Virus record (IMG/VR): IMGVR_UViG_3300033149_003034
Coordinates: 1 to 45,893 of that record
Source: a virus
Reading direction: 5' to 3' (one strand)
Length of the DNA: 45,893 nt
Below the pieces are notes generated by a model, which searched no databases, was not told where the DNA came from, and was given only the letters and a program-made list of their open reading frames with translations. Below are positions 11,247-42,703 of this stretch, piece after piece (position 1 is the first letter of the stretch; each line of letters begins with the position of its first letter). The position numbers were made by a program, and so were the translations under genes.

Positions 11247-13754
11247 CTATTCAGATGTAGTGCAGAGTTCGTAGTAGATCTTCCTCAACAAGTCAGCGAG
11301 CTTGCCTATGTCGGTAGGGACTTCTTTGCTTTTTAATTCCTTCATCTCTTCTTTACACATATTAAAGCCAATTGATAGATCGGCAGGTGTCTTTATCTCT
11401 CTATCGTGCCAATAAAGAGGTTGTTCAAGCGACTCTTTTATCAAAAGTAACATTCTAGCATGTTCTTCCCAAGGGATTGAAAGTGGTATTTGAAACACTA
11501 TTGCGTCATGTATTTGAGTTAACAACTCAATTGGTTTGAAGAGGTGTTGATTGTAGTAGACGTATTCAACTCCATGTTCGTTAATCTTGTCTGCAGTTGT
11601 ACTTTGAGGTAAATGTGCATAGGCTTCACGATAGGTGTTTTCGCAGGCACTTCTAGGAACGTTAGGGGGTGAAGGGATAATAGGACCGAGAAATAACCTT
11701 CGACGACCCATTAGGTTTACGACGGTTCTGTTTTTCTTAAGCATGTTTTGAATTACTTGGTGATAGCCGTTTCTTATTTGTGGATACCCTTTGTGAATCT
11801 TTTCCAGAACGTACTTTGCCTCACCTTCAGGCATTTCATTTGTGAGTGCGAATGTCTTATATCCGACATTATAGTTGATCGCATGGTTTCCCTTTTTGCC
11901 CCAATAGCGCTCGGACTGTCGTCCGTCACCAAGTGATGATGAACCATCTTTTGAAGATATCTGGTCATAAGGTTTGTCAAAGATTATTGAGGCGGTTAGA
12001 CGATGCAAGTCAATGCCTTGTTCAAAGGCCTCTATTTGCGACACAACTCCGCCGACATAAGCAACGATTCGGTTCTCTATCTGTGACAGGTCCATGCTAT
12101 AGAGTATGTAACCTTCATCAGCAAGGAAGAAGCGTAATAGGTCATGTGGCCAATTCTGTTGATTCCCTCCTGTGCCAAAGATTGTCTCACCACTGGAAAT
12201 TCTTCCAGTTTCAGCGCCCACTGGTTTGTATGATGAGCGATAACGTCCGTCTTGGTCAACTTTTCCGATGTTGAGATAAGTGGATATACGCTTCGAGAGT
12301 GATCGAATATCTAGCATCAACCGTGCAGCTTTGCTACCAGGTCCTCCGCTGCGGTAGATTCGCTTGAGTGCATCGATGTCAGTTGTTTTCTTTCCTGTCT
12401 TGCGATTTACGTAAGGTCGGAGACCTAGTTCTTCGTAAAAATAATGTTTTAGTTGTTCTGGCGAATTATAGTTTATTTCGTGACCTACTTCACGATTTAA
12501 TTCATCTGCAAGCTTGTCTAATTCAGCTTGCTGTTGCTCTTTGTATTTCATCATCCCTTCAACATCAATTCTTATTCCACGCTCTGACATGTAAATCAAA
12601 GGTTCGATCAACTTCCGTTGACGCTCATAGGTTTCCTCATTTATTTGCTTAGCAAGGATTTGCAGTTGCTTAGGAATGGCTTCGACAGGCACTATCGCAT
12701 CCATTCCGTTGTAGGTCCACCATTCTTCCCAAGAACCAGTTCCCATCTTCATCCACTGCTTTCCATCGTCTTTGTAGTATGGAACATCGGTGTGCATTGT
12801 AGTTACGAAGTCAAGGCCTGCGGGGAAATCTGGGAAGGCAATCTTTTGAGCAATCTGTGTGCAGTGAATATTGCCTCGAGGATGGATTCCATACTTATGG
12901 AACAAGAATTGGAGATCAAAGATGAAATTAGCACCTACTTTTGAGATCTTTTCTTCTTGAATGATCTTTGCGATCAAAAGCATTATTTCGTATTCTTGCT
13001 CAGGTGTAAAATAGTCACCTTGTTGGTAGCGGAAAGGGATAGATATCGAATGATTAACTGACCAGGCAAATGAGATGCAATCTAGCTCACCGTTTATAAC
13101 TTCGATATCGATTCCTATTGTTTGACCTCTTAGGCCGATCTCGTAGCAATGGTTGAGAGTGGCAACTGCCTCATCAAACGAGGGTTTGATGGTTACGTTT
13201 CTTTCCTTGCGCTCTATCCATGAGAACTCGCTCTCATATTTTGCTTTTAGTAAGTCTTCGCAAATAAGTGGTTTGTTCAAAAAGTTGAATTTCGGAGGAA
13301 TGAACGTAGCAGGGTGGAATGTAGGAACTACTTTCAAGCCAGGTACAATTGTAGATTCAATGACTGAGCCTCTCCACTTAGTTATACCTACTCGGTTAGC
13401 CAGTGCAAGTAAAGCGATGTTGCCACAGGCTACAACGACGTTTAGATTAGGTAGTGACTTTAGTTCGTCAGCTAGTTCCTGGATATGTTGATAACCCTGT
13501 TCAGAAATCTTCCACTTGCCACGAGAATCTATATCAATGTAATGCTTGAGTGGTGCATCTAGGTCCTTGATGACGTTAGTTATGTAAATGTTAGATCGCT
13601 GAATTCTGGTCATTGCAAGGCATTCATCAAGGCCTCGGCCTGCAGGACCAATGAATGGTTTGTGATATTTTACTTCTTGAAACCCAGGTTGTTCGCCAAC
13701 TATTGCTAACTTAGCGTTACGATCTCCACTTGGTGGGACGAAAGTTCTCCTCAT
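11247..13754 (-). CDS. DNA polymerase, family A, with N-terminal uracil-DNA-glycosylase-like domain
   Basis: 835 residues. Residues 1-175 form a UDG family 4/5-like domain: motif 1 GEQPGFQE...KPFIGPAGRGLD (20-43) and the HPAT motif at 147-150; the Cys pairs that bind Fe-S in family 4 UDGs are not visible. Residues about 205-360 hold a 3-5 exonuclease: DIE (D216, E218), ANFIFD (D280), and YNGMD (Y348, D352). The polymerase part has motif A MDLSQIENRI (D555), motif B RYWGKKGNHAINYNVGY (616-632) and motif C QIHDAIVF (D750). The usual Glu after the motif C Asp is Ala (A751). A UDG-like extension on PolA is known from SPO1-type phages. SD ggaggtcat sets the start. Confidence 0.92.
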   Translation of the reverse strand: MRRTFVPPSGDRNAKLAIVGEQPGFQEVKYHKPFIGPAGRGLDECLAMTRIQRSNIYITNVIKDLDAPLKHYIDIDSRGKWKISEQGYQHIQELADELKSLPNLNVVVACGNIALLALANRVGITKWRGSVIESTIVPGLKVVPTFHPATFIPPKFNFLNKPLICEDLLKAKYESEFSWIERKERNVTIKPSFDEAVATLNHCYEIGLRGQTIGIDIEVINGELDCISFAWSVNHSISIPFRYQQGDYFTPEQEYEIMLLIAKIIQEEKISKVGANFIFDLQFLFHKYGIHPRGNIHCTQIAQKIAFPDFPAGLDFVTTMHTDVPYYKDDGKQWMKMGTGSWEEWWTYNGMDAIVPVEAIPKQLQILAKQINEETYERQRKLIEPLIYMSERGIRIDVEGMMKYKEQQQAELDKLADELNREVGHEINYNSPEQLKHYFYEELGLRPYVNRKTGKKTTDIDALKRIYRSGGPGSKAARLMLDIRSLSKRISTYLNIGKVDQDGRYRSSYKPVGAETGRISSGETIFGTGGNQQNWPHDLLRFFLADEGYILYSMDLSQIENRIVAYVGGVVSQIEAFEQGIDLHRLTASIIFDKPYDQISSKDGSSSLGDGRQSERYWGKKGNHAINYNVGYKTFALTNEMPEGEAKYVLEKIHKGYPQIRNGYHQVIQNMLKKNRTVVNLMGRRRLFLGPIIPSPPNVPRSACENTYREAYAHLPQSTTADKINEHGVEYVYYNQHLFKPIELLTQIHDAIVFQIPLSIPWEEHARMLLLIKESLEQPLYWHDREIKTPADLSIGFNMCKEEMKELKSKEVPTDIGKLADLLRKIYYELCTTSE

Positions 13755-13766
13755 ATGACCTCCAAT

Positions 13767-13791
13767 AGTTTGTTTAATTTTTAAACAATCT
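13767..13791. repeat. Dispersed 25-bp palindrome, copy 4
   Basis: Plus-strand reading AGTTTGTTTAAT, T, TTTTAAACAATCT-type right arm. It covers the stop codon and last codons (RLFKN) of the ParB-methyltransferase gene and sits 12 bp upstream of the polymerase start codon. Confidence 0.9.
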
Positions 13792-15096
13792 GTCGATCTT
13801 CACAAGGAATGAGTCTTTGTAGGATTTACCTAGTTCGAAGCCAACAGCTGACATTCCAAGCTGGTGGGCACTTATTAAACCATTTCCTGAACCAAGAAAA
13901 GGAATGAGCACACGAGAGCCTGGAGGTGCGAAGGTTTCGTAGATGTCAGTTGTCAGTTCGATAGGTCGTTCAGTTTCGTGGACCTTCTGGTTTGGTGGGA
14001 CAGGTGAATATTGAAAGACGTTTGACCTGCCTGGTTTGTTAAGCGTCGGGCGACCTTTCCAAGCATAGAAAAACATCTCATATGAATTTGCTAGTTTAAT
14101 TTCCGGTCTCTTTGATTGCCCAGTTGGTTTTACCCAGATACCACACATTCTAGTGGTCTTAAAACCTGCGTTTTGTAACTCTCTGTAAACGACCTCGAAC
14201 CATGGCTCAGGTGCGAACCAACAAATTAGCCAACTGTGGGGAGCCATTACTCGGTAGCATTCTTTGAAGAGTTTTGAGAGGAATTCTTGGTATTCGTCAG
14301 AAGGTATTTCGTTGTAACTAGTTGTTGAATATTGAGATACACCTTCTGATTTTTTTACATTTTTTAAGTCAATTGCATAGGGAGGATCAATCTCTACTAG
14401 GTGAATAGTTTCATCAGGAATATCCTTCACTCCAATGAAGAAGTCCTTTAAAATGAAACATCTAGCGAGTTGCTGCAGGGTTGTGTTAGAACGTTGTTTT
14501 TCTATTTTCTGTGCAATGGTTTGTTTCAGGAGTTCTTCGTCAAGTTTTTTCAGTACCTTTGTTGCATCACTTTGGGTTTTGCACTTTTCAAATAACTCTG
14601 GAAATACTTCCATTGCCTCAGCACGTTTAATGGCTTGAGAGACAGATGCCTTAGAAACACCTCCGATTAAAGCACCTGTGTCTTCAACTGACCAACCAAC
14701 GTTGCCTGGACCTGGAGCTTTGACACCATGCAACTGTTGTTGCAATCTATGAATTTCAAGTGTTAGTTTATCAAGCTCATACCATTCCATGTCTTTGCGG
14801 AAGAAATTCTCAGATTTTTCAATAACCTTCATTTCAATTTCTGAGAGTTCTCTGTCGTAGATTCTGACTGGAACTTCACTGACATTGTTTCTTTGTAGCA
14901 CTGTCAATCTACGTTCGCCAGCCAAGAGTGTGTAAGTTCCGTCGCCATTATCTTTGACTGCAAGTGGAGAGATCAGGCCACTTTCCTTCATATTCTCTTC
15001 GAGCGAATCGAGGTCACCCATCTCTTCACGTGCACGTTTTCCGACAGTTATTGAACTAAGTGGGACCATTCCTACTTTTCCAACCTTGATAGACAT
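13774..15096 (-). CDS. ParB-domain / DNA methyltransferase fusion
   Basis: 440 residues. Residues 8-100 are a ParB/Spo0J-type N-domain with the nucleotide-binding box LLAGERRLTVLQRN (GERR at 60-63). Residues 135-160 look like the ParB helix-turn-helix (SVEDTGALIGGVSKASVSQA). Residues 205-440 are an amino-methyltransferase of beta-type order: DPPY at 237-240 first, then the SAM-binding FLGSGNG at 400-406, with HETERPIELT before it. N6-adenine or N4-cytosine methylation is expected. ParB-methylase fusions are well known in phages and usually act as solitary methylases. Which DNA site it recognises is unknown; the 25-bp palindromes are a candidate. SD gggaggtaact. Confidence 0.88.
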   Translation of the reverse strand: MSIKVGKVGMVPLSSITVGKRAREEMGDLDSLEENMKESGLISPLAVKDNGDGTYTLLAGERRLTVLQRNNVSEVPVRIYDRELSEIEMKVIEKSENFFRKDMEWYELDKLTLEIHRLQQQLHGVKAPGPGNVGWSVEDTGALIGGVSKASVSQAIKRAEAMEVFPELFEKCKTQSDATKVLKKLDEELLKQTIAQKIEKQRSNTTLQQLARCFILKDFFIGVKDIPDETIHLVEIDPPYAIDLKNVKKSEGVSQYSTTSYNEIPSDEYQEFLSKLFKECYRVMAPHSWLICWFAPEPWFEVVYRELQNAGFKTTRMCGIWVKPTGQSKRPEIKLANSYEMFFYAWKGRPTLNKPGRSNVFQYSPVPPNQKVHETERPIELTTDIYETFAPPGSRVLIPFLGSGNGLISAHQLGMSAVGFELGKSYKDSFLVKIDRLFKN

Positions 15097-15098
15097 AG

Positions 15099-15302
15099 TT
15101 AGTTACCTCCCAAGATTTCAAGAAGTTTAGCTGCCTGTTCAGATGAAAGGCTTAATTTCTTTTCCCTTTTCTTGCTAGTTGTCTTTTTTGGTTTTTTGAC
15201 AGGTATTCGACGTGATAAGCGAATTTGACGTAATAGTTCAAGTGCTTCATCAATAGACATTTCAGAGATTGAAGTGTAATCAAGGTCATCTAAATTAGCC
15301 AT
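15099..15302 (-). CDS. Small hypothetical protein, basic centre
   Basis: 67 residues, start behind gaaaggaggaggaaa. An acidic N-terminal half (NLDDLDYTSISEMSIDEALELL), a basic Lys/Arg segment (RRIPVKKPKKTTSKKREKK), then a short helix LSSEQAAKLLEIL. It overlaps the upstream gene by 8 nt and lies 2 nt before the ParB-methylase gene. I do not recognise it; a small regulator or adaptor is possible. Confidence 0.7.
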   Translation of the reverse strand: MANLDDLDYTSISEMSIDEALELLRQIRLSRRIPVKKPKKTTSKKREKKLSLSSEQAAKLLEILGGN

Positions 15303-15549
15303 TTTCCTCCTCCTTTGAAATATCTGCTTTGTGTAGTGAAGGTAGGACTTTCCTAGGTTTTATCTTCCCACTGATAATCATTCCTATAGCGACACCTCCA
15401 TAGTCCTCGATTAAGTCGAGAACGTCGTCAAGAATGACGCTGAACAGTGCTCGGCGCAGACCATAGGTCTCCAGCAGTCGATCGGCACGTTCTTTTTGTT
15501 CGGGAGTTATTTCAAATGAAAAGCGTGGGATGTAGTTGTCACGAGACAT
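15295..15549 (-). CDS. Small hypothetical protein, possibly DNA-binding
   Basis: 84 residues. A strand FSFEITPEQKERADRLLETYG followed by two helices (RRALFSVILDDVLDLIEDYG) has the order of a ribbon-helix-helix protein, where the strand pair contacts DNA; this is an inference from pattern only. It overlaps the downstream small gene by 8 nt, so the two are probably co-translated with the ParB-methylase gene. Confidence 0.65.
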   Translation of the reverse strand: MSRDNYIPRFSFEITPEQKERADRLLETYGLRRALFSVILDDVLDLIEDYGGVAIGMIISGKIKPRKVLPSLHKADISKEEENG

Positions 15550-15759: not shown

Positions 15760-15784
15760 AGTTTGTTTAAAATTTAAACAATCT
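15760..15784. repeat. Dispersed 25-bp palindrome, copy 5
   Basis: Plus-strand reading AGTTTGTTTAAA, A, TTTAAACAATCT: arms match at 11 of 12. Its last base overlaps the stop codon of the sulfoquinovose-synthase-like gene. Confidence 0.92.
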
Positions 15785-16983
15785 TACCATTTCGTGGTAG
15801 GATCGATTACTTCCTCCTTTATATTGTCGGTGTAAGGTATTAAGTCTTTCAATAGAGAAGTTATCTCACACTTCAGATTTGTAGTGGGTTTGTAACCTAA
15901 GTCTTTTAGCTTGTGATGGACTGGTAGATAATAATGCTCCTCCATCTCTTTTCGTGGATTTTCTATGTGAAAAATCTCGGTAGATAGGCCTAGTTCGGAC
16001 GCGCATTCTTTTACGGTTATGGCTAGTTCATCTACTGAACAAGTCATAGCAAATTGATTTAGAGTTCTGTATTCACCTTGTTTAGGAGGATTTTCTAAAG
16101 CTATTGTCAAGCAAGTTATCGAATCCTTAAGAGTCAAAAACCCTCTGGTTTGGCCACCTTTTCCGTAAGGTGTAATAGGATGTCCTATCAATGCCTGGAC
16201 ACAGAAGCGATTGATCACTGTCCCGAAATACTCGTCGTAATCAAAGCGGGTTATTTCTACGCCTTCAGACGTAGGCATCAATCCAAATACTACGCCTTGC
16301 ATTATGTCAGTTGAACGCAATCCCCAGTTGCGACAAGCAAACTCGATATTGTGAGTGTCGTGGACCTTTGAAAGGTGATACCATGAGCCAGCGGTTCGAG
16401 GAAACAACAAGTCGGCCATCGGACAGGTTCGTGAATCTTCTATGGATATAATCTTGCCTGGTTTTAACTCTTCAAGGCAAGTGTAAGGTATATATCCCTC
16501 AGGTATTATACAGGGAGGTGTCCCATATTCTCCCATTGTTCCTAATTTTATCAAGTGAGCTTCGGGACAAGCTTCTTTTATAGCCCATAGTAAGTGGAGC
16601 GTTCCGATGACATTTCCTTTTTGTGTCTCAGTTGCGTGCTGTACACTTTTCATAGACCAAGGTGCGGAAGGTTGTTCTGCAAGATGAATAATAGTGTCAG
16701 GTTTGAAGACGCTTAGGATGCCTCTTATGAACCCAGGTGAGTCGAAACCGAGGGATAGGTCAACTTGGTCGGCGAAGTTTCTGAATGTTTTTAAGTATAA
16801 CTTTCTTTCCCATACAGAAGCTATTGGTGTTAGCGAGTCGCTGCCGACTTTATGAACACGTCTTCTGCGTGACTTATCGTCGATTCCGAAGACAATGTAG
16901 CCACGTTTTAAGAGATGGATAGTTAAAGGATAACCTATATATCCATCGTTTCCTAAGACTAAGACTTTGTGGCTTGAGTTCAT
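15784..16983 (-). CDS. sqdB: UDP-sulfoquinovose synthase-like NAD-dependent epimerase (SQD1/SqdB family)
   Basis: 399 residues, short-chain dehydrogenase fold. The NAD-binding motif VLGNDGYIG is at 9-17. Family features recognised: SRRR near 38-42, LTPIA at 51-55, HLAEQPSAPWSM near 100-111, KLGTMGEYGTP (T149), PEGYI at 161-165, WYHLSKVHDTHN (Y202, K206 as the YxxxK pair), QGVVFG, TRFDYD, NRFCVQALIGHPIT, and YGKGGQTRGF near 273-282. These match UDP-sulfoquinovose synthase, which makes UDP-6-sulfo-quinovose from UDP-glucose and sulfite. The overlap with the upstream dCMP deaminase (ATGA) ties it to the phage operon. Sulfite addition itself is not proved; a relative with another substrate is possible. 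Confidence 0.85.
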   Translation of the reverse strand: MNSSHKVLVLGNDGYIGYPLTIHLLKRGYIVFGIDDKSRRRRVHKVGSDSLTPIASVWERKLYLKTFRNFADQVDLSLGFDSPGFIRGILSVFKPDTIIHLAEQPSAPWSMKSVQHATETQKGNVIGTLHLLWAIKEACPEAHLIKLGTMGEYGTPPCIIPEGYIPYTCLEELKPGKIISIEDSRTCPMADLLFPRTAGSWYHLSKVHDTHNIEFACRNWGLRSTDIMQGVVFGLMPTSEGVEITRFDYDEYFGTVINRFCVQALIGHPITPYGKGGQTRGFLTLKDSITCLTIALENPPKQGEYRTLNQFAMTCSVDELAITVKECASELGLSTEIFHIENPRKEMEEHYYLPVHHKLKDLGYKPTTNLKCEITSLLKDLIPYTDNIKEEVIDPTTKW

Positions 16984-17504
16984 AAATCAAACCTCCTTAT
17001 GACTATGTCTGAGTTGTTGGCCAGTAGCTCTGTGTGAGGATCGTAGAATTTTGTATCTTCTACAACGACCTCTACAATGCCTGCGTTGATGAGAGTGCCG
17101 AAGCACTTCTGACATGGTATCACAGAGTTCATATAAAGAGTAGTACCAACAGTTTGGACACCAAGTCTTGCAGCATTAGATATGGCATTTTCTTCTGCAT
17201 GTTGCGCTATACAGTATTGTATGCCTTCACCGCTTTTGTAACCCAACAACTTGCGTGGGCAGGTTGTGGCGATTACTTTTGGTGGGTAGATTTGAGACAG
17301 GTTAGAGAGTGTCTTGTCTTTCATAAATCTCTCGTGACCACAGTGAGGGATATCCCTAGGTGGTCCATTATAACCAGTTGATACAATACTCTTGTCACGC
17401 ACAAGAAGTGCGCCTATCTTTCGTGACAGACAAGGTGATTTTTTAGCAATGACTTTGCAGATTTCATAAAAATATTTATCCCAACTCTTTGGTGCATTCT
17501 TCAT
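16980..17504 (-). CDS. dCMP deaminase
   Basis: 174 residues of the zinc-dependent cytidine/deoxycytidylate deaminase family. The zinc site is visible: QHAEENAI (H102, catalytic E104) and PCQKC (C131, C134). The start region SWDKYFYEICKVIAKKSPCLSRKIGALLV and the NGPPRDIPHCGH loop are typical of ComEB/phage dCMP deaminases, which turn dCMP into dUMP for dTTP synthesis. No thymidylate synthase is seen in the genome, so host enzymes would complete the path. SD ggagaa. It overlaps the downstream sqdB-like gene by 4 nt. Confidence 0.92.
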   Translation of the reverse strand: MKNAPKSWDKYFYEICKVIAKKSPCLSRKIGALLVRDKSIVSTGYNGPPRDIPHCGHERFMKDKTLSNLSQIYPPKVIATTCPRKLLGYKSGEGIQYCIAQHAEENAISNAARLGVQTVGTTLYMNSVIPCQKCFGTLINAGIVEVVVEDTKFYDPHTELLANNSDIVIRRFDL

Positions 17505-19037: not shown

Positions 19038-19859
19038 CTAGAACTCAAGCGGCGGTTTATCTTGCCAATCGAGACCTGCTTTTTTCAACAGTTTTTTAAT
19101 ATCAGGCTCCTCGACTGCATCGAGTTTTCCATCGGCTTTTAGCCGAGACCGAGCGAGGTAAGTTCCCATAGAGTCAATTAGCATCTTCCTGCGAGGACCC
19201 CTTGGACCTTCCTCTCCAATGAGTACGTAGATTTCGTCGAACAATAAGGGTATAGTTACAACTGCCTGACCAGTTGTGTAGAAACGGTATTTTATATCTT
19301 CACGGACTATGCCTGTTTTACTATCTATTGACAACACCTTCCGCATTTCCCTAAGGTGACCTGTCAAGATGAAATCGCAAGGGAGGCGCATTAGTTTGCG
19401 AATGTAATTAGTCATATGCACCTTCTGCGGATTATAGTCGTGACGGTGTTGAGGTATTTCACCTGCTCGACCTTTCTGAGCGAGACCGTAGTTCATCACT
19501 GCCTCGCCCCACGTAGTGGCGCTGTCAAGACAGTAGGTTCCAAAGTGGTTGAAGTAACCTATTTGCAATCTTAGATCTATGGTCTTCATCCATTTAGCGA
19601 ATTTGTCAGGTTCAAAGGGATCTTCGTCTTCCCACTGTGTATCAGCGACTATGTCACCTTTCTCGATGTATTCACGAAGGCATTTTGTGCCGCCAGGGTC
19701 GAAAGAGTCTATATGTACGGGTTTGCGAGCAGTTCTTAGCAAGAAGGTCTTTCCAGCGTTAGTTTCGCCTGTGATGAGAGCGCTGAAGCGCTTTTGTAAC
19801 GGATCGCCTTCGTAATATTCTTTTACCTTTTTCAGTTCATTTGTGTAGTCATAGGGCAT
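19038..19859 (-). CDS. Sak4-like / AAA phage recombination ATPase
   Basis: 273 residues, SD gaaaggaggaaa. Walker A GETNAGKT is near residue 31. A likely Walker B strand TYCLDSATTWG is near residue 110, and a strand CDFILTGHLREM is in the sensor position. Small RecA-core ATPases of this kind (Sak4 / AAA_24 family) promote single-strand annealing or recombination and occur beside SSB-like and PD-(D/E)XK nuclease genes, as here. The C-terminus is basic then acidic (KKLLKKAGLDWQDKPPLEF). Confidence 0.78.
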   Translation of the reverse strand: MPYDYTNELKKVKEYYEGDPLQKRFSALITGETNAGKTFLLRTARKPVHIDSFDPGGTKCLREYIEKGDIVADTQWEDEDPFEPDKFAKWMKTIDLRLQIGYFNHFGTYCLDSATTWGEAVMNYGLAQKGRAGEIPQHRHDYNPQKVHMTNYIRKLMRLPCDFILTGHLREMRKVLSIDSKTGIVREDIKYRFYTTGQAVVTIPLLFDEIYVLIGEEGPRGPRRKMLIDSMGTYLARSRLKADGKLDAVEEPDIKKLLKKAGLDWQDKPPLEF

Positions 19860-29653: not shown

Positions 29654-29682
29654 TTGACAAACGACGTTGGTCGTTATATAAT
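29654..29682 (+). promoter_or_regulatory. Perfect consensus sigma-70 promoter of the late region, with dyad in spacer
   Basis: TTGACA (29654-29659), 17 bp, TATAAT (29677-29682): both hexamers match the bacterial consensus exactly. The spacer contains the dyad AACGAC-GTTG-GTCGTT, a likely operator. Start expected near 29689, leader of about 43 nt to the small-terminase-like gene. It is the only strong plus-strand promoter I see and it heads the whole rightward gene block. Confidence 0.9.
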
Positions 29683-30376: not shown

Positions 30377-30660
30377 CAGTTTGGTACAAACAAGGGGTCG
30401 TTGGCGACCTGCGGCAATCAGCTAGGAAAGGCCTAGGAAAGGTTGCTAGGTTGTTAGAAAAACGTGGTGAAGATTTGTTCGTCACGTCTCTACGTGACGG
30501 TAACCACTCACCAGGTTCTCTTCACTACGACGGCCTAGCGTTCGATATCCGCTATCCGCACACTGCGACTGTGCAGCAGTTAAAAGATGAACTTGGACCT
30601 GAGTGGGACATAGTCCCTGAAGCAAACCATATACATTGTGAGTATGACCCAAAGGAGTGA
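30373..30660 (+). CDS. M15-type peptidase, probable endolysin
   Basis: 95 residues, SD gaagaggaaatgg, 4-nt overlap with the upstream gene. VTSLRDGNHSPGSLHYDGLAFDIRYP and EANHIHCEYDP give the zinc site of M15 peptidases (H51, D58, H88), as in VanY and L-Ala-D-Glu phage endopeptidases. It is a bare catalytic domain with no cell-wall-binding part and no signal peptide. The next gene is holin-like, making a lysis pair. Confidence 0.85.
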   Translation: MTVWYKQGVVGDLRQSARKGLGKVARLLEKRGEDLFVTSLRDGNHSPGSLHYDGLAFDIRYPHTATVQQLKDELGPEWDIVPEANHIHCEYDPKE

Positions 30661-30664
30661 TGAG

Positions 30665-31066
30665 ATGTCTTTTGATCCAATAACTGCAGGAATAGATCTT
30701 GTAAAAGAAGGAATCAAGCGTATCTTTCCCGAAAAGATGTCAGAAGAACAAGAGCGCAAGCTTGACTCTGTGCTTGAACAATCCTTTCGCAAATTCATAG
30801 TTGAATACGAAGGCTCAGCACGTGACTATCAACACGTGCCAATAGTTGGTCCTATCGTTTTATTATTCAGAGGCCTCATTCGGCCTCTTTGGACCATCGG
30901 TACTTTATACTGGAACTGGGTTTATTTCACTTCGGTAGACCAGTGGCCCGAGATGAAGTGGAGGCTATTGTTAATAAACACTATTTTGGTCCTCGTTTTC
31001 TGGTTCGGTGAACGAGCGGTTAAAAATGTAACTCCTTTCCTTGTTGAGTTGTTTAAGAAAAGATGA
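30665..31066 (+). CDS. Holin-like membrane protein
   Basis: 133 residues from ATG at 30665 (SD aaggagtgatgag). The N-half is soluble (DPITAGIDLVKEGIKRIFPEKM, helical, acidic), and the C-half has hydrophobic helices (VPIVGPIVLLFRGLIRPLW, TIGTLYWNWVYF, LLLINTILVLVFWFGERAV) and a basic end FKKR. This is the shape of the three-TM phage holin group. Beside the M15 peptidase it likely times lysis. Overlaps the glycosyltransferase start (ATGA). Confidence 0.75.
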   Translation: MSFDPITAGIDLVKEGIKRIFPEKMSEEQERKLDSVLEQSFRKFIVEYEGSARDYQHVPIVGPIVLLFRGLIRPLWTIGTLYWNWVYFTSVDQWPEMKWRLLLINTILVLVFWFGERAVKNVTPFLVELFKKR

Positions 31067-32109
31067 AACCTGAGTTGTCCATAATAATCTCCAACCGCAA
31101 CGACATTGCGATGCTTGCAGTGACCATCAGGTCGTGTATTGAATCTTTCAAAGCTTTCCCTAAAGGTTTCTGCGAAATAGTTATTTGCGACAACTCTGAC
31201 GAACCAGCTTACGAACTTGTAAAGGCTGCAATTCCAAAAGGTTACATAAAGGAAGGAACCATCAAACTCCTCCGTCAAACCTTTCCTTGTTTGTTTTCAG
31301 CCCGTGAAACTGCAGCACGTCATGCACAAGGTAAATATATCATCTGTCTTGACTCTCATATGTTAGTCGGTAGAAGTACGTTTACTGATCTCTATCAATT
31401 TATGGAACGACGTTCTTATGACAAGACCCTTGGCTTTGCACATGCACCGATCAACTGGGCACACCAACATGAGTCACGCTCTAAACATGATCGTGATATG
31501 AGTGTGCACGAACTCGGAGATTGGAACTCTGTTTACAAAAACCCTCATCCAATGACCTGGAAGGGAATGCCCTGGATCTGCCGCCGTGAGTGGTTTCTCT
31601 CACGAGAAAATGGAATAGGTGGTTACGGAGCCCTCGCAAAACACCGTGTTTCTTGGGGCGGCGGAGACATGCACATCGGCATTAAACCTTGGCTCCTTGG
31701 CTACGTAAACTGGGCAGTTCCAACCGATCCTTGCATCCACATAGGGCCATTTCCCAAACTTGACCAATCAAAAGATAAACACTCAGTCAGTGTCTCTCAC
31801 TATGCCAACCAAGATCGCTATCGACTCTATGCAAAATCAGGTAACTTCCCTCACACTTTCGGATTTCTCGTTTCGTGTTATGTTCTTGGTGGAACCGAAA
31901 TGATGAAACGCAATGAAAAGATATTAACTGAAAGGTTCGGTCGCTACATTGATATCAAAAAGTGGTGGGATAAAGCTATTGAAATTGGCTCTGAGGAACG
32001 TGAGTGGTTACTAGAAAACCAAAAAATTTCCTTTAGCGAATTGCTAAGGTTGGAACCTTGGAAATCAATCGAAGATTGTTCAAAATTCAAACAATCTATC
32101 TGGGGGTAA
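31063..32109 (+). CDS. GT2-type glycosyltransferase
   Basis: 348 residues. The start LSIIISNRNDIAMLAVTIRSCIES and IVICDNSDE are the nucleotide-sugar binding strands of the GT-A fold. ARHAQGKYIICLDSHMLVG contains DSH in place of the DxD metal motif, as in polypeptide GalNAc transferases and many GT2 enzymes. The GWGGGDMH-like segment (WGGGDMHIGIKPW) may be the acceptor side. It sits between lysis genes and the tailspike and could modify a virion or host surface glycan. The last codons lie in palindrome copy 13. Confidence 0.8.
   Translation: MKPELSIIISNRNDIAMLAVTIRSCIESFKAFPKGFCEIVICDNSDEPAYELVKAAIPKGYIKEGTIKLLRQTFPCLFSARETAARHAQGKYIICLDSHMLVGRSTFTDLYQFMERRSYDKTLGFAHAPINWAHQHESRSKHDRDMSVHELGDWNSVYKNPHPMTWKGMPWICRREWFLSRENGIGGYGALAKHRVSWGGGDMHIGIKPWLLGYVNWAVPTDPCIHIGPFPKLDQSKDKHSVSVSHYANQDRYRLYAKSGNFPHTFGFLVSCYVLGGTEMMKRNEKILTERFGRYIDIKKWWDKAIEIGSEEREWLLENQKISFSELLRLEPWKSIEDCSKFKQSIWG
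32073..32097. repeat. Dispersed 25-bp palindrome, copy 13
   Basis: AGATTGTTCAAA, A, TTCAAACAATCT: both arms share most positions. Inside the coding 3-prime end of the GT2 gene (encodes CSKFKQS). Confidence 0.92.
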
Positions 32110-32113
32110 AAGA

Positions 32114-34306
32114 ATGAAAATAAAGACTTTCGTCTTCACGATGCTGTTGATTATAACAACAACCTTTGCTAGTGCAGACTATTTCCGTGACGTAGTTCTA
32201 ACTGGCACAGATGGACCTTGGACTGATGTTCGTTCTTATAGTTCTCTAACCAACGCAATAAATGCAATCGGCGCTAACAAGCAAACTCTCTTGATTCCGG
32301 CCGAAGTGACATGTTCCAATTTAACAATACCTTCCAACGTCACTTTAAAATTCACTAAAGATGGTGCTATCAACAACTCAGGCCAACTAACTATTCAAAC
32401 AAAAGACATCATCGCCGACAGTCACCAAATATTCACAGGTTCTGGTGATATAGACTTCGCCGATACCACAGAGGTAAAAGCCTCTTGGTTCAGCTCTTTA
32501 GCGACTGCCATTTCACTAACAAACGACGACGGAGTGCGTCTCATAATAGATGGCCAATACACTCTCAGTTCATCCCAAACTCTTGGAGCTGAAGTAATCC
32601 TCGTCTTTCCATCCCCGGATTCTGCAATTTCAACTAATGCTGGCGCTACTCTGTCAAACATCTCAAACATCGTTTCAGGAAAACACGTCATTTTAACTGG
32701 CGACGGCGACTTTGATTTTGTTGAAGGTTCAACTGTCCACTCATCGTGGTTCACTTCTCTTCACAGAGGTTTAGCATTCATAGACGATGACAACGTGAAT
32801 CTGACAATGATAGTCGATGGCAATACTGACATAGACTCCGACACGACAGTCGACGATTACATCACCTTGAAAGTCGAAAAAGGCAACCCAATCAACATCT
32901 CCGCCGGTGTCACCCTCACCATCAACGGCACTCTTGAAGCTGGAAGGTATCAGGTATTTGATGGAGATGGAAACGTAGTTTTTGAGGATGGAGCTATAGA
33001 TGTTGTTTATCCTGAGTGGTGGGGAGATGATGGTAACGCTATTCAGAACGCTATAGATTCTCTCTCATCTGGGACTGTTTCATTAGGACGTGGCACTAGC
33101 TATACAAACTGCGACAACATTCAACTAAAGACATCGGTTAACATTAATGGTAACGGAGCAATACTTAATGGCTCTGGCTCAAGCTATATAGTTTCAGCGA
33201 TTGACGTAAATCAGATCTATGTACAAGACCTCTATATCATCCCTGGTGATAATAATACTTACTGCTTTTATGGCCGCAAAGTTAGATACTCACATTTCGA
33301 AAACATTTTTGTCGGGCAGAGAGTTCCTGATATTAGAGGTTCGGACAGTACTATCGGGTTCGCTATCACAGGTGGTGCAAGTGGTTCTGGAAGCTACGAA
33401 AACACTTTCAAAGGAATTACTGCCAGGAATTGTGGTGGAGATGGCATTGTCTTACAGATGGATGACGCCGAGGCCACACCAAGAATAAACGCCAATCACT
33501 TCTTCGGTATACATTCAATCGGAAACAGTGGGCATGGTCTAGTTGTCATAGGTGCCTATGGCAATCTTTTTGCTGGTGTACATGTTGAAGACAACGACGG
33601 ATACGGTATAGTAGTTGGGAAAACCAGTGGAGGTGCCATAAGTTATGGCAACGACTTCTTATCTGTCTGGAATGAAAATAACGCCTCTGGTACTGTAAGC
33701 CTTGACACAGATTGTAATTCAAATAGGTTTACCCTCGCAAACTCCTGGCCGATACCTGATGAGTTTAAAGCTACTGATGGGACGATCTGGGTTCGTATGG
33801 GAGCGCAACCGTTTGCATCAAGGAACGGTTTTGACGCATATGCAATAGGTTTAAGAGTATATTCCTCAGAGACTGACTCACAGCCAACGTCTCAATATGG
33901 AAAAACGAATTATAGAATAGGTCCAGGTGGCAGTTCCCCGCTTGATACTATAATGGAAAGAGGCGGTCCAGGGACGTTTCTGGCCACAGGAGGTGTTGCA
34001 AATAAGAAGCAGGACATAGCATACAGTACTTCCATAACTCCAGATATTGCTAATGGACATAACATAAAAGTTGGAACACTGACTGGCAATATCACTATAA
34101 ACGAACCACTCAACGCAGTAGAGGGCGCTGTGATCACTTTTGAGTTCAAACAAGATGGGACTGGTGGTAGAACCGTTAGTTGGGACCCTGTGTTCAAACA
34201 TGCTTGGAGTGATACTGGAAACGCTGCGGATAAAAGATGTACTATCTCGTTTATATACAATGGTACTTATTGGATACAGCTCGGGGCGCAAAGTCCTTAC
34301 TTTTGA
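32114..34306 (+). CDS. Beta-helix tailspike / pectate-lyase-like protein with signal peptide
   Basis: 730 residues, SD tgggggtaaaag. The N-terminus MKIKTFVFTMLLIITTTFASA is a textbook Sec signal with an AxA cleavage site at about 19-21. The following segments (WTDVRSYSSLTNAINAIG, TLLIPAEVTCSNLTI, FTKDGAINNSGQLTI) occur in three imperfect N-terminal copies, then a right-handed beta-helix with GGDGIVL, GNSGHGLVV and DNDGYGIVV turns, and a small beta end domain NGTYWIQLG. Tailspikes of this type bind and cut host polysaccharide. A secretion signal is unusual for a virion protein. Confidence 0.8.
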   Translation: MKIKTFVFTMLLIITTTFASADYFRDVVLTGTDGPWTDVRSYSSLTNAINAIGANKQTLLIPAEVTCSNLTIPSNVTLKFTKDGAINNSGQLTIQTKDIIADSHQIFTGSGDIDFADTTEVKASWFSSLATAISLTNDDGVRLIIDGQYTLSSSQTLGAEVILVFPSPDSAISTNAGATLSNISNIVSGKHVILTGDGDFDFVEGSTVHSSWFTSLHRGLAFIDDDNVNLTMIVDGNTDIDSDTTVDDYITLKVEKGNPINISAGVTLTINGTLEAGRYQVFDGDGNVVFEDGAIDVVYPEWWGDDGNAIQNAIDSLSSGTVSLGRGTSYTNCDNIQLKTSVNINGNGAILNGSGSSYIVSAIDVNQIYVQDLYIIPGDNNTYCFYGRKVRYSHFENIFVGQRVPDIRGSDSTIGFAITGGASGSGSYENTFKGITARNCGGDGIVLQMDDAEATPRINANHFFGIHSIGNSGHGLVVIGAYGNLFAGVHVEDNDGYGIVVGKTSGGAISYGNDFLSVWNENNASGTVSLDTDCNSNRFTLANSWPIPDEFKATDGTIWVRMGAQPFASRNGFDAYAIGLRVYSSETDSQPTSQYGKTNYRIGPGGSSPLDTIMERGGPGTFLATGGVANKKQDIAYSTSITPDIANGHNIKVGTLTGNITINEPLNAVEGAVITFEFKQDGTGGRTVSWDPVFKHAWSDTGNAADKRCTISFIYNGTYWIQLGAQSPYF

Positions 34307-36385: not shown

Positions 36386-36829
36386 ATGGGTGAAGTAACT
36401 TGGACTAGTTATGGAACGTGGACTACAGCTATTAGCTCTGGCCTTGATAGCTTGGCAGATGATGGGTTAGCTATAAGTTCTGCCATAGATAACAGTTCCG
36501 ATAAAAAGCTATTCGTTGACATTGAGGTTTATCTGGCTTCAGTTGATCTGTCCTCTTCTACGAATCCGGCTATCTACATCTGGCTTATTGCTCGAACAAA
36601 TGGGACTAATTTCGAAGACGGTGGATCGAGTGTAGAGCCTGCCCGTGCTCCAGATGCCATTATCCCACTTAGAACAGGTACGGGAGCGATGACTCAAAGG
36701 GTATTTGCTAGAATGCTAATGGCAACACCTGATCAGTTCAAGATTCTCGTGCAGAACAAGGCTGGAGCTGCGTTGGCAGCAAGCGGAAATACAGTAAAGT
36801 ATAACCTCTATGGAGAGACAGTGGCCTAA
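36386..36829 (+). CDS. Virion hypothetical protein, beta-sandwich-like
   Basis: 147 residues, SD taggaggtaagag. Alternating Ser/Asp-rich loops and strands (KKLFVDIEVYLASVDLSSST, AIYIWLIARTNG, TQRVFARMLMATPDQFKILV) and an end KYNLYGETVA. Looks like a structural decoration or fibre-associated protein. One-base overlap (TAATG) with the LamG-like gene. Confidence 0.72.
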   Translation: MGEVTWTSYGTWTTAISSGLDSLADDGLAISSAIDNSSDKKLFVDIEVYLASVDLSSSTNPAIYIWLIARTNGTNFEDGGSSVEPARAPDAIIPLRTGTGAMTQRVFARMLMATPDQFKILVQNKAGAALAASGNTVKYNLYGETVA

Positions 36830-38003
36830 TGTTCCGACTAATCCGAAACCCCGATCCTCGAAAGAAACCGCCCTATGGCAGTAGGATTGATCCTACACAT
36901 CCGCTGGCACAGGGACTGGTGGGGTGTTGGTTGCTCAATGAGGGTGGGCCGGATGTTTTTGATATAACAGACGGTAATAAAAGCAATTCTGTTAATTCTG
37001 GGTGGATTACCACTCCGCATGGATTTGCGTTTAACCCAAATAGTACCGGTGATATAGTAATTGACAAAGGCTATCAACTGTTCCCAGATCAAATAGGTAC
37101 CGTCGGTGTTTTTTACTATCGAACTTCTCAAGCCGATGCGGAAAGATATTACATTGGATGTGGGGCTTCCTCGGGCAATACCCCTTTTTGTATGTGCACG
37201 AATCAATATGGGACTAACAGAGTGTTTTTAACCCAGAATAATGGTAGTTACGTCAAGTATTGGGATACCAATACTAATTTTCCACACACAAGCATAATTG
37301 CAACATTTGATTCGAGATCAGGAGGAAGTTTAGACAATTGGCAAGCGTGGCTTAATGGAGAAAGGTTGGGGACACCAAATGCGACAGGGTCTATAACCGG
37401 AATGACTGAGTCGGGAAGGGTTTATATAGCAAACGCTTTTGGCAGAACTGCATATGGCGATGTGCCAATTATATTCGTATCTATCTGGGACAGGTGGCTT
37501 TCTAATTCAGAAATCCTCCAACTCTACGCCGAACCCTACTCCTTTATCCTCGCCCCTCAATACTGGTACATGGTGGATTTTGGGGTAGTAGGTGCTGCGA
37601 CTACAGCTGCTCCGACAACAATAGCTCCAACAACCCAAGCTCCAACGACGAGTCAACCAACTACGACCCACCCACCACTCAGGCACCAACAACTGTGCAA
37701 CCTACAACTGTACCACCAACGACGGTTAAGCCAACTACTTCACCACCTACAACCGTTTCTCCCACAACTATCCTGCCTACAACAATAGCAGGAACAACTG
37801 TAGCTCCAACAACCACTCTACCTCCACAACCAACTACAGTTGTTCCTACTACTGTTGTACCTTTGGGGATGTATGAATGCTTACTATTGGTTCGATCTGG
37901 TGTGTCGAAAGAGTTATCACTGCAATCTAAAATAACAAAAGAATTGTCAGGAAGATCTTTAATCAACAACGAGGTATTACTACATGGAGACCTTTGTAGG
38001 TGA
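36829..38003 (+). CDS. LamG/concanavalin-like virion protein with Thr/Pro linker, apparent -1 frameshift
   Basis: The first frame gives 319 residues and ends at 37788. Residues 20-240 look like a LamG-type jelly roll (HPLAQGLVGCWLLNEGG, NWQAWLNGERLG, VSIWDRWLSNSEILQLY, then AEPYSFILAPQYWYMV), common in phage fibres that bind sugars. Then AAPTTIAPTTQAPTT repeats begin and break near 37665-37680, where the frame changes to the -1 frame and the PTT repeats go on (QPTTVPPTTVKPTTSPPTT) to a small C-terminal domain ending LLHGDLCR at 38003. The joined product would have about 391 residues. Confidence 0.7.
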
Positions 38004-41500: not shown

Positions 41501-42316
41501 ATGAACGACTTTGCAGATGAAATAGAACTCATGAACAAACACTTGACAGGCGAAGGTGAACAGACGACTGAAGCGCCTTCAACCGAAGGACCTTCAACCG
41601 AAGTGCCTGCGACGGAACTTCCTTCGACCGAAGTTCCTTCAACTGAGGCACCTTCAACAGAGGTACCTTCGACAGAAGCGCCTTCAACTGACGTTCCTGG
41701 GGACGACGTAGTCACTCGACTAAAGGCTGAAATCGAAGAACTAAAGGCCCTTGTAAAAGGTAAGAAATCAACAACCGAAGCACCTTCAACTGAACCACCT
41801 CTAGAACTTGAAGAAAGGAACTTTCTTGAAGGCATAGACGTGGACGAAGTAATGGACAATCCTGCTGCGCTAAACAAGTTATTAAACAAAATCTACCAAC
41901 AAGCAGTAACAGACACCAGAAAAATTCTCGGCGAAGGTGTTCTTCGCTCAATACCTGAAATCGTAAGAACCAACATAGCGACTGTGACGAATCTTCAAAA
42001 AGCTAGTGAACAGTTCTACGAACAAAATCCTGACCTAAAACCCTTTAAGAAAGTTGTAGCGTCAGTTTTTGAGGAACTCGCTTCCCAAAACCCAGATAAG
42101 CGCTACGACGAGATATTAACTGAAGTAGGTGACGAAGTAAGAAAACGTCTTGACCTACACAAACAAGCAACTGCAAACCAACCTAAAAACAAAAAACCAA
42201 CAGCCCCTCGTCTGCCAAGAAAACGCTCCAGCGCTGGCAGACCTAAGGGCCAACAACCACCAACTGATCCTCTTCTAGCTGAGCTGGAAGAAATGAACAA
42301 AGCATTAGGGAGGTAA
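41501..42316 (+). CDS. Scaffold-like protein with PSTE pentapeptide repeats
   Basis: 271 residues. After 22 residues there are about nine PSTEx repeats (APSTEGPSTEVPATELPSTE type), then a coiled coil RLKAEIEELKALVKG, one more APSTEPP, a helical middle (ALNKLLNKIYQQAVTDTRKIL) and a basic Pro-rich tail KKPTAPRLPRKRSSAGR ending ELEEMNKALGR. Acidic helical proteins with a basic C-terminus directly before the capsid gene are scaffolds. The repeat is 15 bp at the DNA level. Confidence 0.75.
   Translation: MNDFADEIELMNKHLTGEGEQTTEAPSTEGPSTEVPATELPSTEVPSTEAPSTEVPSTEAPSTDVPGDDVVTRLKAEIEELKALVKGKKSTTEAPSTEPPLELEERNFLEGIDVDEVMDNPAALNKLLNKIYQQAVTDTRKILGEGVLRSIPEIVRTNIATVTNLQKASEQFYEQNPDLKPFKKVVASVFEELASQNPDKRYDEILTEVGDEVRKRLDLHKQATANQPKNKKPTAPRLPRKRSSAGRPKGQQPPTDPLLAELEEMNKALGR
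41560..41695 (+). repeat. 15-bp coding repeats (PSTEx)
   Basis: Tandem, imperfect 15-bp units around ccttcaaccgaag, about nine copies, within the scaffold-like gene. Synonymous changes differ among units (tcgacc, tcaact, tcaaca), so the protein repeat is kept while DNA identity is lowered. Confidence 0.8.
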
Positions 42317-42322
42317 CTAACT

Positions 42323-42703
42323 ATGGCACTTGAAGACAAATTTGCACAGCATGACAAAATAGTGGTTGACAAGTACGTTAACCCTACAGAGGACTACGAG
42401 ATGAAAACCTATGATTACGTAGTCCGCCCGAGCGCTAACCCAACAACAGGAGCTATCAAGATCACTTTGCCACGTGTAGCTGAGGCCAAAGGCAGGTTTT
42501 ACTCAATCCTGGCCCGTGACGCTGATGGGACTAACACCATTACCGTTCAAGACCAGGATGATAGCGAACTTTGGTCTGACATCACACTCAATGGCCCTGG
42601 TGATCAGGTACTCCTGTACTCTGACGGCATTCATTGGTGGACAGTTGTATCTGTCCTAACCTATTCTGGAACAACTGCTGCACCAACATCTGAAGCTGCA
42701 TAA
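42323..42703 (+). CDS. Capsid-associated / decoration-type protein
   Basis: 126 residues, SD agggaggtaact. LEDKFAQHDKIVVDKYVNPTED, then beta strands (GAIKITLPRVAEAKGRFYSIL, TNTITVQDQDDSELWSDITL, DQVLLYSDGIHWWTVVSVLTYSG) and an end TTAAPTSEAA that recalls the Thr/Pro linkers of two other virion proteins. The place immediately before the major capsid gene fits a head decoration protein. Confidence 0.72.
   Translation: MALEDKFAQHDKIVVDKYVNPTEDYEMKTYDYVVRPSANPTTGAIKITLPRVAEAKGRFYSILARDADGTNTITVQDQDDSELWSDITLNGPGDQVLLYSDGIHWWTVVSVLTYSGTTAAPTSEAA

Follow-up and report, generated by a model that had tools for sequence, protein, structure and literature searches.

A phage branch of the UDP-sulfoquinovose synthase family varies together with a glycosyltransferase and with mucin-like tracts on virion-module proteins

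A 45,893-base stretch of virus DNA (a single IMG/VR virus record, called the window here and meaning the whole stretch analyzed) carries a gene that belongs, by sequence and predicted fold, to the UDP-sulfoquinovose synthase family (SQD) represented by SQD1, SqdB, and Agl3. Across a lineage of related phages this gene has been gained and lost in company with a glycosyltransferase (GT2) and with Thr/Pro-rich tails on a protein encoded beside the major capsid gene. The explanation that we favor, and consider probable, is a phage-encoded, mucin-like O-glycosylation of the virion for which UDP-sulfoquinovose, made by the phage-specific synthase, is the likely donor. Whether the donor synthase, a polypeptide-GalNAc-transferase-like enzyme, and mucin-like tracts on several virion proteins make up a self-contained phage set, gained and lost as one across the lineage, seems to us evenly balanced.

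The synthase gene and its immediate surroundings are as follows:

15784 to 16983, minus strand: UDP-sulfoquinovose synthase-family gene (SQD), 399 aa from its ATG, assigned by homology and predicted fold
16980 to 17504, minus strand: dCMP deaminase, with ATGA (16983-16980) forming a 4-nt overlap with the SQD start
16992 to 16998, minus strand: Shine-Dalgarno-like AAGGAGG, 8 nt ahead of the start codon of SQD, as read from the sequence

The original prediction had described this reading frame as a true phage gene of the UDP-sulfoquinovose synthase family, with its motifs, the residues T149, Y202, and K206, and the 4-nt overlap, and each of these was recovered, on the minus strand. All four motifs (GTMGEYGTP, WYHLSKVHDTHN, NRFCVQALIGHPIT, and YGKGGQTRGF) occur in the protein. 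In the alignment T149, Y202, and K206 correspond to T145, Y182, and K186 of SQD1, and the wider set T145/M146/E148/Y149/S180/Y182/H183/K186 of SQD1 is matched by T149/M150/E152/Y153/S200/Y202/H203/K206; the catalytic Tyr, Lys, Glu, and Met are invariant in 50 phage-lineage copies, four of which have Ser in place of Thr. The NF041015 (UDP-sulfoquinovose synthase) profile matches over positions 2-383 of 384 (E = 6e-136, with the next family at 1e-9), and the SQD1 chains 1i24 and 1qrr are matched at E of about 4e-101, with 43% identity to Arabidopsis SQD1 in a full-length homology. The profile score of 453 bits lies below the NCBI equivalog cut-off of 575 bits, which is a naming threshold and not a biochemical one; a cyanobacterial homolog that retains the Arg101 discussed below (L083, R-type) also falls under it, at 485 bits. 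On sequence comparison the phage set is thus treated as a deep branch of the family and not as a certified equivalog.

An AlphaFold2 model of the protein (mean pLDDT 76, pTM 0.84) was nearest to SQD1 in structure comparison (Z 40.2 over 350 residues; Foldseek was also run), the next family being UDP-glucose 4-epimerase at Z 29.8, so that placement in another epimerase branch, the outcome named in advance as counting against the assignment, did not occur. Parts of the active-site loops (residues 151-162, 172-185, and 195-205) were modeled with low confidence. The phage protein shares with SQD1, SqdB, and Agl3 the Rossmann fold, the Thr/Tyr/Lys triad, and the GTMGEYG and YHxSK motifs, but differs from them in having Pro for Arg101, a loop from IPEG to FPR that is longer and variable, and, as its partner, a polypeptide-GalNAc-transferase-like GT2 instead of a known sulfolipid or lipid-linked-glycan transferase. 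Close pairs of phage copies gave dN/dS values of 0.07-0.13, and the gene is under purifying selection. It is not a stray host gene, since the window, itself an IMG/VR virus record, has close relatives among phage contigs that share its gene order.

A scan of IMG/VR in which the aligned phage proteins served as query yielded at least 111 confirmed stretches that encode relatives. In a 112-row tree, computed by a quick method, 42 viral rows formed a phage-only clade with no cellular members (SH-aLRT 99), and the nearest cellular sequences showed at most 51% identity to it. Among 50,697 named phage records the protein had no match. The original prediction held that phage-encoded members were rarely or not described, which is nearly right; one published instance is a Mu-like virus contig from 900 m in the Cariaco Basin with a putative UDP-sulfoquinovose synthase, for which its authors proposed a role in N-glycosylation (PMC7785012), and the IMG/VR relatives add to it. 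That case resembles the present one as a viral contig bearing an SQD-family gene, but it is a single, Mu-like contig with a proposed action on host proteins, whereas the window gene belongs to the replication module of a different lineage and co-occurs with GT2 and putative virion acceptors. Within the phage set the IPEG-FPR loop varies in length, and two near-identical synthases (L014:6451-7659 and L019:7986-9221) have wholly different loops at this place. A further related synthase (L023:3406-5601) has an in-frame, intein-like insertion within the GTMGEYG/TP motif, which starts CYDDKTEILTKGGW... and ends ...YWSGN.

The position of the gene is defined by these neighbors:

11247 to 13754, minus strand: PolA-type DNA polymerase, the basis of the phage tree
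13774 to 15096, minus strand: fusion of ParB-N and N6_N4 DNA methyltransferase, replication module
15295 to 15549, minus strand: conserved phage ORF of 84 aa that adjoins the SQD slot on its downstream side and marks it, being present also in phages without SQD
19038 to 19859, minus strand: RecA-like ATPase (a putative label from gene order), upstream border of the slot; an 'ATPase' is annotated at the matching place in OP947158

In about 50 contigs SQD lies between the pair of RecA-like and 139-aa genes and a block of 84-aa, 67-aa, ParB-methyltransferase, PolA, and primase genes, and phages found through their PolA have the same block with the slot empty. The slot is therefore fixed but optional in this podovirus-like lineage, and SQD is usually there; in G018/L145 and G045/L168 the gene is found instead in the structural module, beside the major capsid gene. 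A functional coupling of SQD to dCMP deaminase through their 4-nt overlap was considered and rejected: the two genes vary independently, and the overlap does not make them a functional pair because about a third of the SQD-positive relatives have no deaminase. The nearest named phage is Desulfofustis phage LS06-2018-MD01 (OP947158; 46% identity in PolA, 46% in terminase, and 53% in the major capsid protein), whose host, inferred by CRISPR spacers, is Desulfofustis sp. PB-SRB1 (PMC10370329). Its replication module has the same order as that of the window, but it is without SQD, dCMP deaminase, GT2, and mucin-like tracts. As separate observations on this module, the fusion of a ParB N-terminal domain with an N6/N4 DNA methyltransferase (13774-15096) is conserved throughout the lineage, and the PolA frames of L105/G001 and L225/G031 run to about 1,145 aa versus about 835 aa in relatives, perhaps through an insertion in the gene.

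The late transcription unit that holds GT2 contains the following:

29654 to 29682, plus strand: perfect match to a sigma70-type promoter (TTGACA-17-TATAAT) before the unit running from the TerS-like gene to GT2; predicted, as a consensus match only
30638 to 31066, plus strand: 142-aa ORF with hydrophobic stretches, overlapping GT2 by 4 nt and sharing its transcription unit
31063 to 32109, plus strand: GT2, 348 aa, PF00535 (E = 1.6e-13), predicted fold nearest to polypeptide GalNAc-transferases
32114 to 34306, plus strand: 730-aa protein after GT2, tail-spike-like by position, with no family match

Gene content was compared over 54 gene families in 43 records covering the replication slot (21 with SQD and 22 lacking it); the records are contigs that may be incomplete, and absence accordingly means absence from the contig. 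GT2 was the best correlate of SQD among the 54 families, being present in 17 of the 21 SQD-positive and one of the 22 SQD-negative records (p = 2.3e-7). The four SQD-positive records without it are fragments that end short of the GT2 slot, and where both slots were covered GT2 occurred in 16/16 SQD-positive versus 1/18 SQD-negative records (p = 1.5e-8). On the PolA tree, seven independent pairs could be drawn on supported branches, and in 6.7-6.9 of these seven only pairs SQD and GT2 shifted together, with none shifting in opposite directions (sign test, p = 0.016). The suggestion in the original prediction that the synthase is linked to this GT2 is hence borne out by joint occurrence and by joint change on the tree. 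Three records carry GT2 and lack SQD in spite of a covered slot (G033, G046, and G054, the latter two from a separate GT2 search), from which it follows that GT2 can work with another donor: the synthase is nearly always accompanied by GT2, and GT2 can do without the synthase.

An additional nucleotide-sugar epimerase was found in six SQD-positive and no SQD-negative records, mostly next to or directly upstream of GT2, and four of the six also carry a methyltransferase. In G006 (L276:17215-18677), for instance, a second nucleotide-sugar epimerase and a SAM methyltransferase lie directly upstream of GT2, an arrangement seen only in synthase-positive phages. In G002 (L263:4046-6064) a fusion of a B12-binding radical SAM domain with a GT2 domain is encoded two genes downstream of GT2.

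The model of GT2 (pLDDT 82, pTM 0.85) points to a protein acceptor. All 29 of its top PDB entries were polypeptide GalNAc-transferases (Z 22.1-25.0), followed by chondroitin polymerase at 18.9 (Foldseek was also run); against viral structure models only generic GT2 proteins were returned, and no GT4 or GT8 match was obtained. D97-S98-H99, W198-G199-G200, and H226 do not vary among nine diverse members and align with the LDSH, WGG, and late His of pp-GalNAc-T10 (2d7i), at a weak sequence score (E 0.4); by this weak alignment the features of a GT-A catalytic domain, namely DxH and WGG(E) motifs and a metal-binding His, are present. The likeness to the polypeptide GalNAc-transferases (GT27) thus lies in the predicted fold of the catalytic domain (Z 25), the DSH, WGG, and late His, and the Thr/Pro-rich putative acceptors; the differences are the phage origin, the length of 348 aa, an identity of 16-19%, and the lack of the C-terminal ricin-type lectin domain usual in animal GT27, PF00535 being the sole family match. 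As this lectin domain is lacking, GT2 is described as working like GT27 and is not filed as a member. A literature search for mucin-like or polypeptide-GalNAc-transferase-like systems in phages returned nothing relevant, which is weak evidence of absence.

Three candidate acceptors, and the major capsid protein beside one of them, are encoded in the virion module:

36829 to 38003, plus strand: LamG/ConA-like protein with an APTTxAPTT mucin-like tract, which continues in another frame at 37695-38003
41501 to 42316, plus strand: protein of the portal-MCP interval, with an N-terminal PSTEVPSTEAPSTE tract and a 15-bp tandem repeat at 41576-41688
42323 to 42703, plus strand: 126-aa protein adjoining MCP, with the C-terminal tail ...GTTAAPTSEAA
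42720 to 44027, plus strand: major capsid protein (MCP), by a match to phrog_1328

Mucin-like tracts on virion-module proteins, such as APTTLAPTTLPPTTLAPTT, were found in 19 of 21 SQD-positive and two of 22 SQD-negative records (p = 5e-8, at a tract threshold chosen after the tract of the window had been seen and tested on the other records); on the tree 5.4 of the seven pairs changed in the same direction as SQD and none in the opposite one (p about 0.06). A sharper contrast is offered by one orthologous family, that of the MCP-adjacent protein, in which a Thr/Pro tail is present in 14/15 GT2-positive versus 0/17 GT2-negative phages (p = 3e-8; 6.0 of seven pairs, p = 0.03), as scored by a simple pattern rule that overlooks the visible tails of G002 and G014. 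The orthologs of GT2-negative phages stop soon after the domain. G033 and G046, which have GT2 and lack SQD, carry the tail, G033 being both the one tailed and the one GT2-positive record among the SQD-negative records of the comparison set; G054, with a more distant GT2 (42%), has none, and the tail of G018 is short. The association of the tail with GT2 is no weaker than that with the synthase, which fits a scheme in which GT2 transfers the sugar and the synthase is one of the sources of its donor. Peptides ending in ...SGTTAAPTSEAA and the APTTxAPTT repeat are put forward as putative GT2 acceptors. Separately, the LamG/mucin-tract gene (36829-38003) has a frameshift within its repeat when compared with G001, whose 421-aa protein is intact; this is either a real deletion or an assembly repeat collapse.

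The same observations bear on where else the sugar could go. Phage GT2 proteins often modify host surface polysaccharide, and the ORF upstream of GT2 (30638-31066) has the hydrophobic stretches that might suit such an activity, so the enzyme and its sugar could be altering host surface glycans, in superinfection exclusion or receptor change, with the Thr/Pro tracts as unrelated linkers. This is unlikely, given that the tails come and go with GT2 on one orthologous protein and that the predicted fold of GT2 is that of a polypeptide GalNAc-transferase. Quite improbable, too, is an auxiliary metabolic role in which the gene boosts the sulfolipid (SQDG) or surface sulfoglycan of the host and so spares phosphate or alters the envelope during infection, as in the proposal of the original prediction that host lipids could be altered. 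SqdB/SQD1 have an established role in phototrophs and in some bacteria, and the early or replication-module position of SQD would suit this reading; but GT2 matches no known type of sulfolipid transferase and its fold suggests protein acceptors, and no lipid or photosynthesis genes were recognized among the window proteins scanned. No lipid gene co-varied with SQD among the 54 families either, the best co-varying traits being GT2 and the virion tails, and a role in host lipids was rejected. The inferred host of the nearest named phage relative, Desulfofustis sp. PB-SRB1, is moreover a non-phototroph (PMC10370329).

A supply of sugar for hypermodification of the phage DNA was weighed because SQD lies in the replication module by dCMP deaminase, ParB-methyltransferase, and PolA, and because some viruses encode glycosyltransferases that act on DNA (Pyle et al., 2024, as cited in PMC12619734). 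We consider it very improbable and rejected it: the window ORFs scanned included no recognizable gene for a dCMP hydroxymethylase or for other base activation, the deaminase is an inconsistent neighbor, GT2 sits in the late unit between the TerS-like and TerL genes and has a polypeptide-transferase-like fold, and the correlate is a set of protein tails.

Glycosylation of the virion leaves the identity of the sugar to be considered. In Agl3, replacement of His95, Arg101, Met145, Tyr182, or Lys186 by Ala abolishes activity, while T144A stays active (PMC4388408). SQD1, Agl3, and the S. meliloti pSymB enzyme all carry this Arg101, and its presence had been expected to provide a simple confirmation; this failed, as the position is Pro105 in the window protein and Pro in all 81 viral copies aligned and in 42 of 63 near cellular relatives. 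Loss of sulfite-binding residues, named beforehand as a result that would tell against the assignment, is accordingly found in part, at Arg101, but Tyr, Lys, Met, Glu, and His of the catalytic site are unchanged. The phage branch might then have given up sulfite addition while still acting on UDP-glucose as an SDR, for example as a UDP-glucose 5,6-dehydratase or an epimerase, and provide another sugar to the same GT2 for virion O-glycosylation. Beyond the loss of Arg101, a score under the equivalog cut-off and the formation of UDP-glucose-5,6-ene by SQD1-type enzymes without sulfite (PMC8987622) would agree with this possible but doubtful reading. Against it, the catalytic Thr/Tyr/Lys and the Met, Glu, Tyr, Ser, and His are all retained. 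Besides R/P101 only three positions, all conservative, distinguish R-type from P-type proteins; two P-type cellular proteins (L025 and L077) pass the equivalog cut-off that the R-type L083 fails; and a sulfate adenylyltransferase of CysN/CysC type adjoins one P-type cellular gene, probably that of the thaumarchaeal locus L063, to judge by the length of the neighbor there. Given so few differences, and P-type proteins that pass the cut-off, yet Pro at Arg101, the family assignment is kept, and sulfite addition by the phage branch is something that we infer from sequence comparison.

Among 43 neighbors of Pro-type cellular synthases (L028, L033-L035, L046, L047, and others; many from Anaerolineae) no sulfolipid transferase was found. 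Nine of these neighbors are archaeal-type aspartate-semialdehyde dehydrogenases and six are histidinol-dehydrogenase-like proteins, which may belong to another sulfonate pathway.

Under the favored explanation, O-glycosylation of the virion from UDP-sulfoquinovose, SQD would convert UDP-glucose and sulfite, the latter acting as nucleophile, to UDP-sulfoquinovose by NAD-dependent SDR chemistry. As SQD would be expressed alongside the replication proteins of the leftward unit, activated sugar could be ready when the rightward late unit makes GT2, which would accept UDP-sulfoquinovose as donor and move the sugar onto Thr/Ser of the mucin-like tracts of the MCP-adjacent, portal-MCP, and LamG proteins and of a tail protein. 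With assembly of these proteins into the virion, the particle would end up with an acidic O-glycan coat, which may serve in receptor binding, stability, or masking. Of the features looked for in phage virion glycosylation, a phage-encoded glycosyltransferase is present in the window, in the form of the PF00535 GT2, as known from the genes. In mycobacteriophages, virions are O-glycosylated by phage glycosyltransferases, with glycans at the C-termini of capsid and tail-tube subunits (Freeman et al., 2023, as cited in PMC12619734), sites comparable to the C-terminal Thr/Pro tail of the MCP-adjacent protein. The account given in that citing source mentions no sulfosugar synthase, and the window differs further in its GT27-like GT2, its mucin-like repeats, and its phage lineage (PMC12619734).

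For phage biology, the lineage offers a testable case of mucin-like O-glycosylation, in which enzyme and putative acceptor tails stand in one genome and close relatives without both provide natural controls. If the explanation is true, a gene that would otherwise bear the isolated label of 'auxiliary metabolic gene' would take its place in a pathway for coating the virion. Chloroplast and bacterial lipids contain sulfoquinovose, as do archaeal N-glycans; the decoration of virions would, if confirmed, be a new use of this sugar and a new source of sulfonated glycans.
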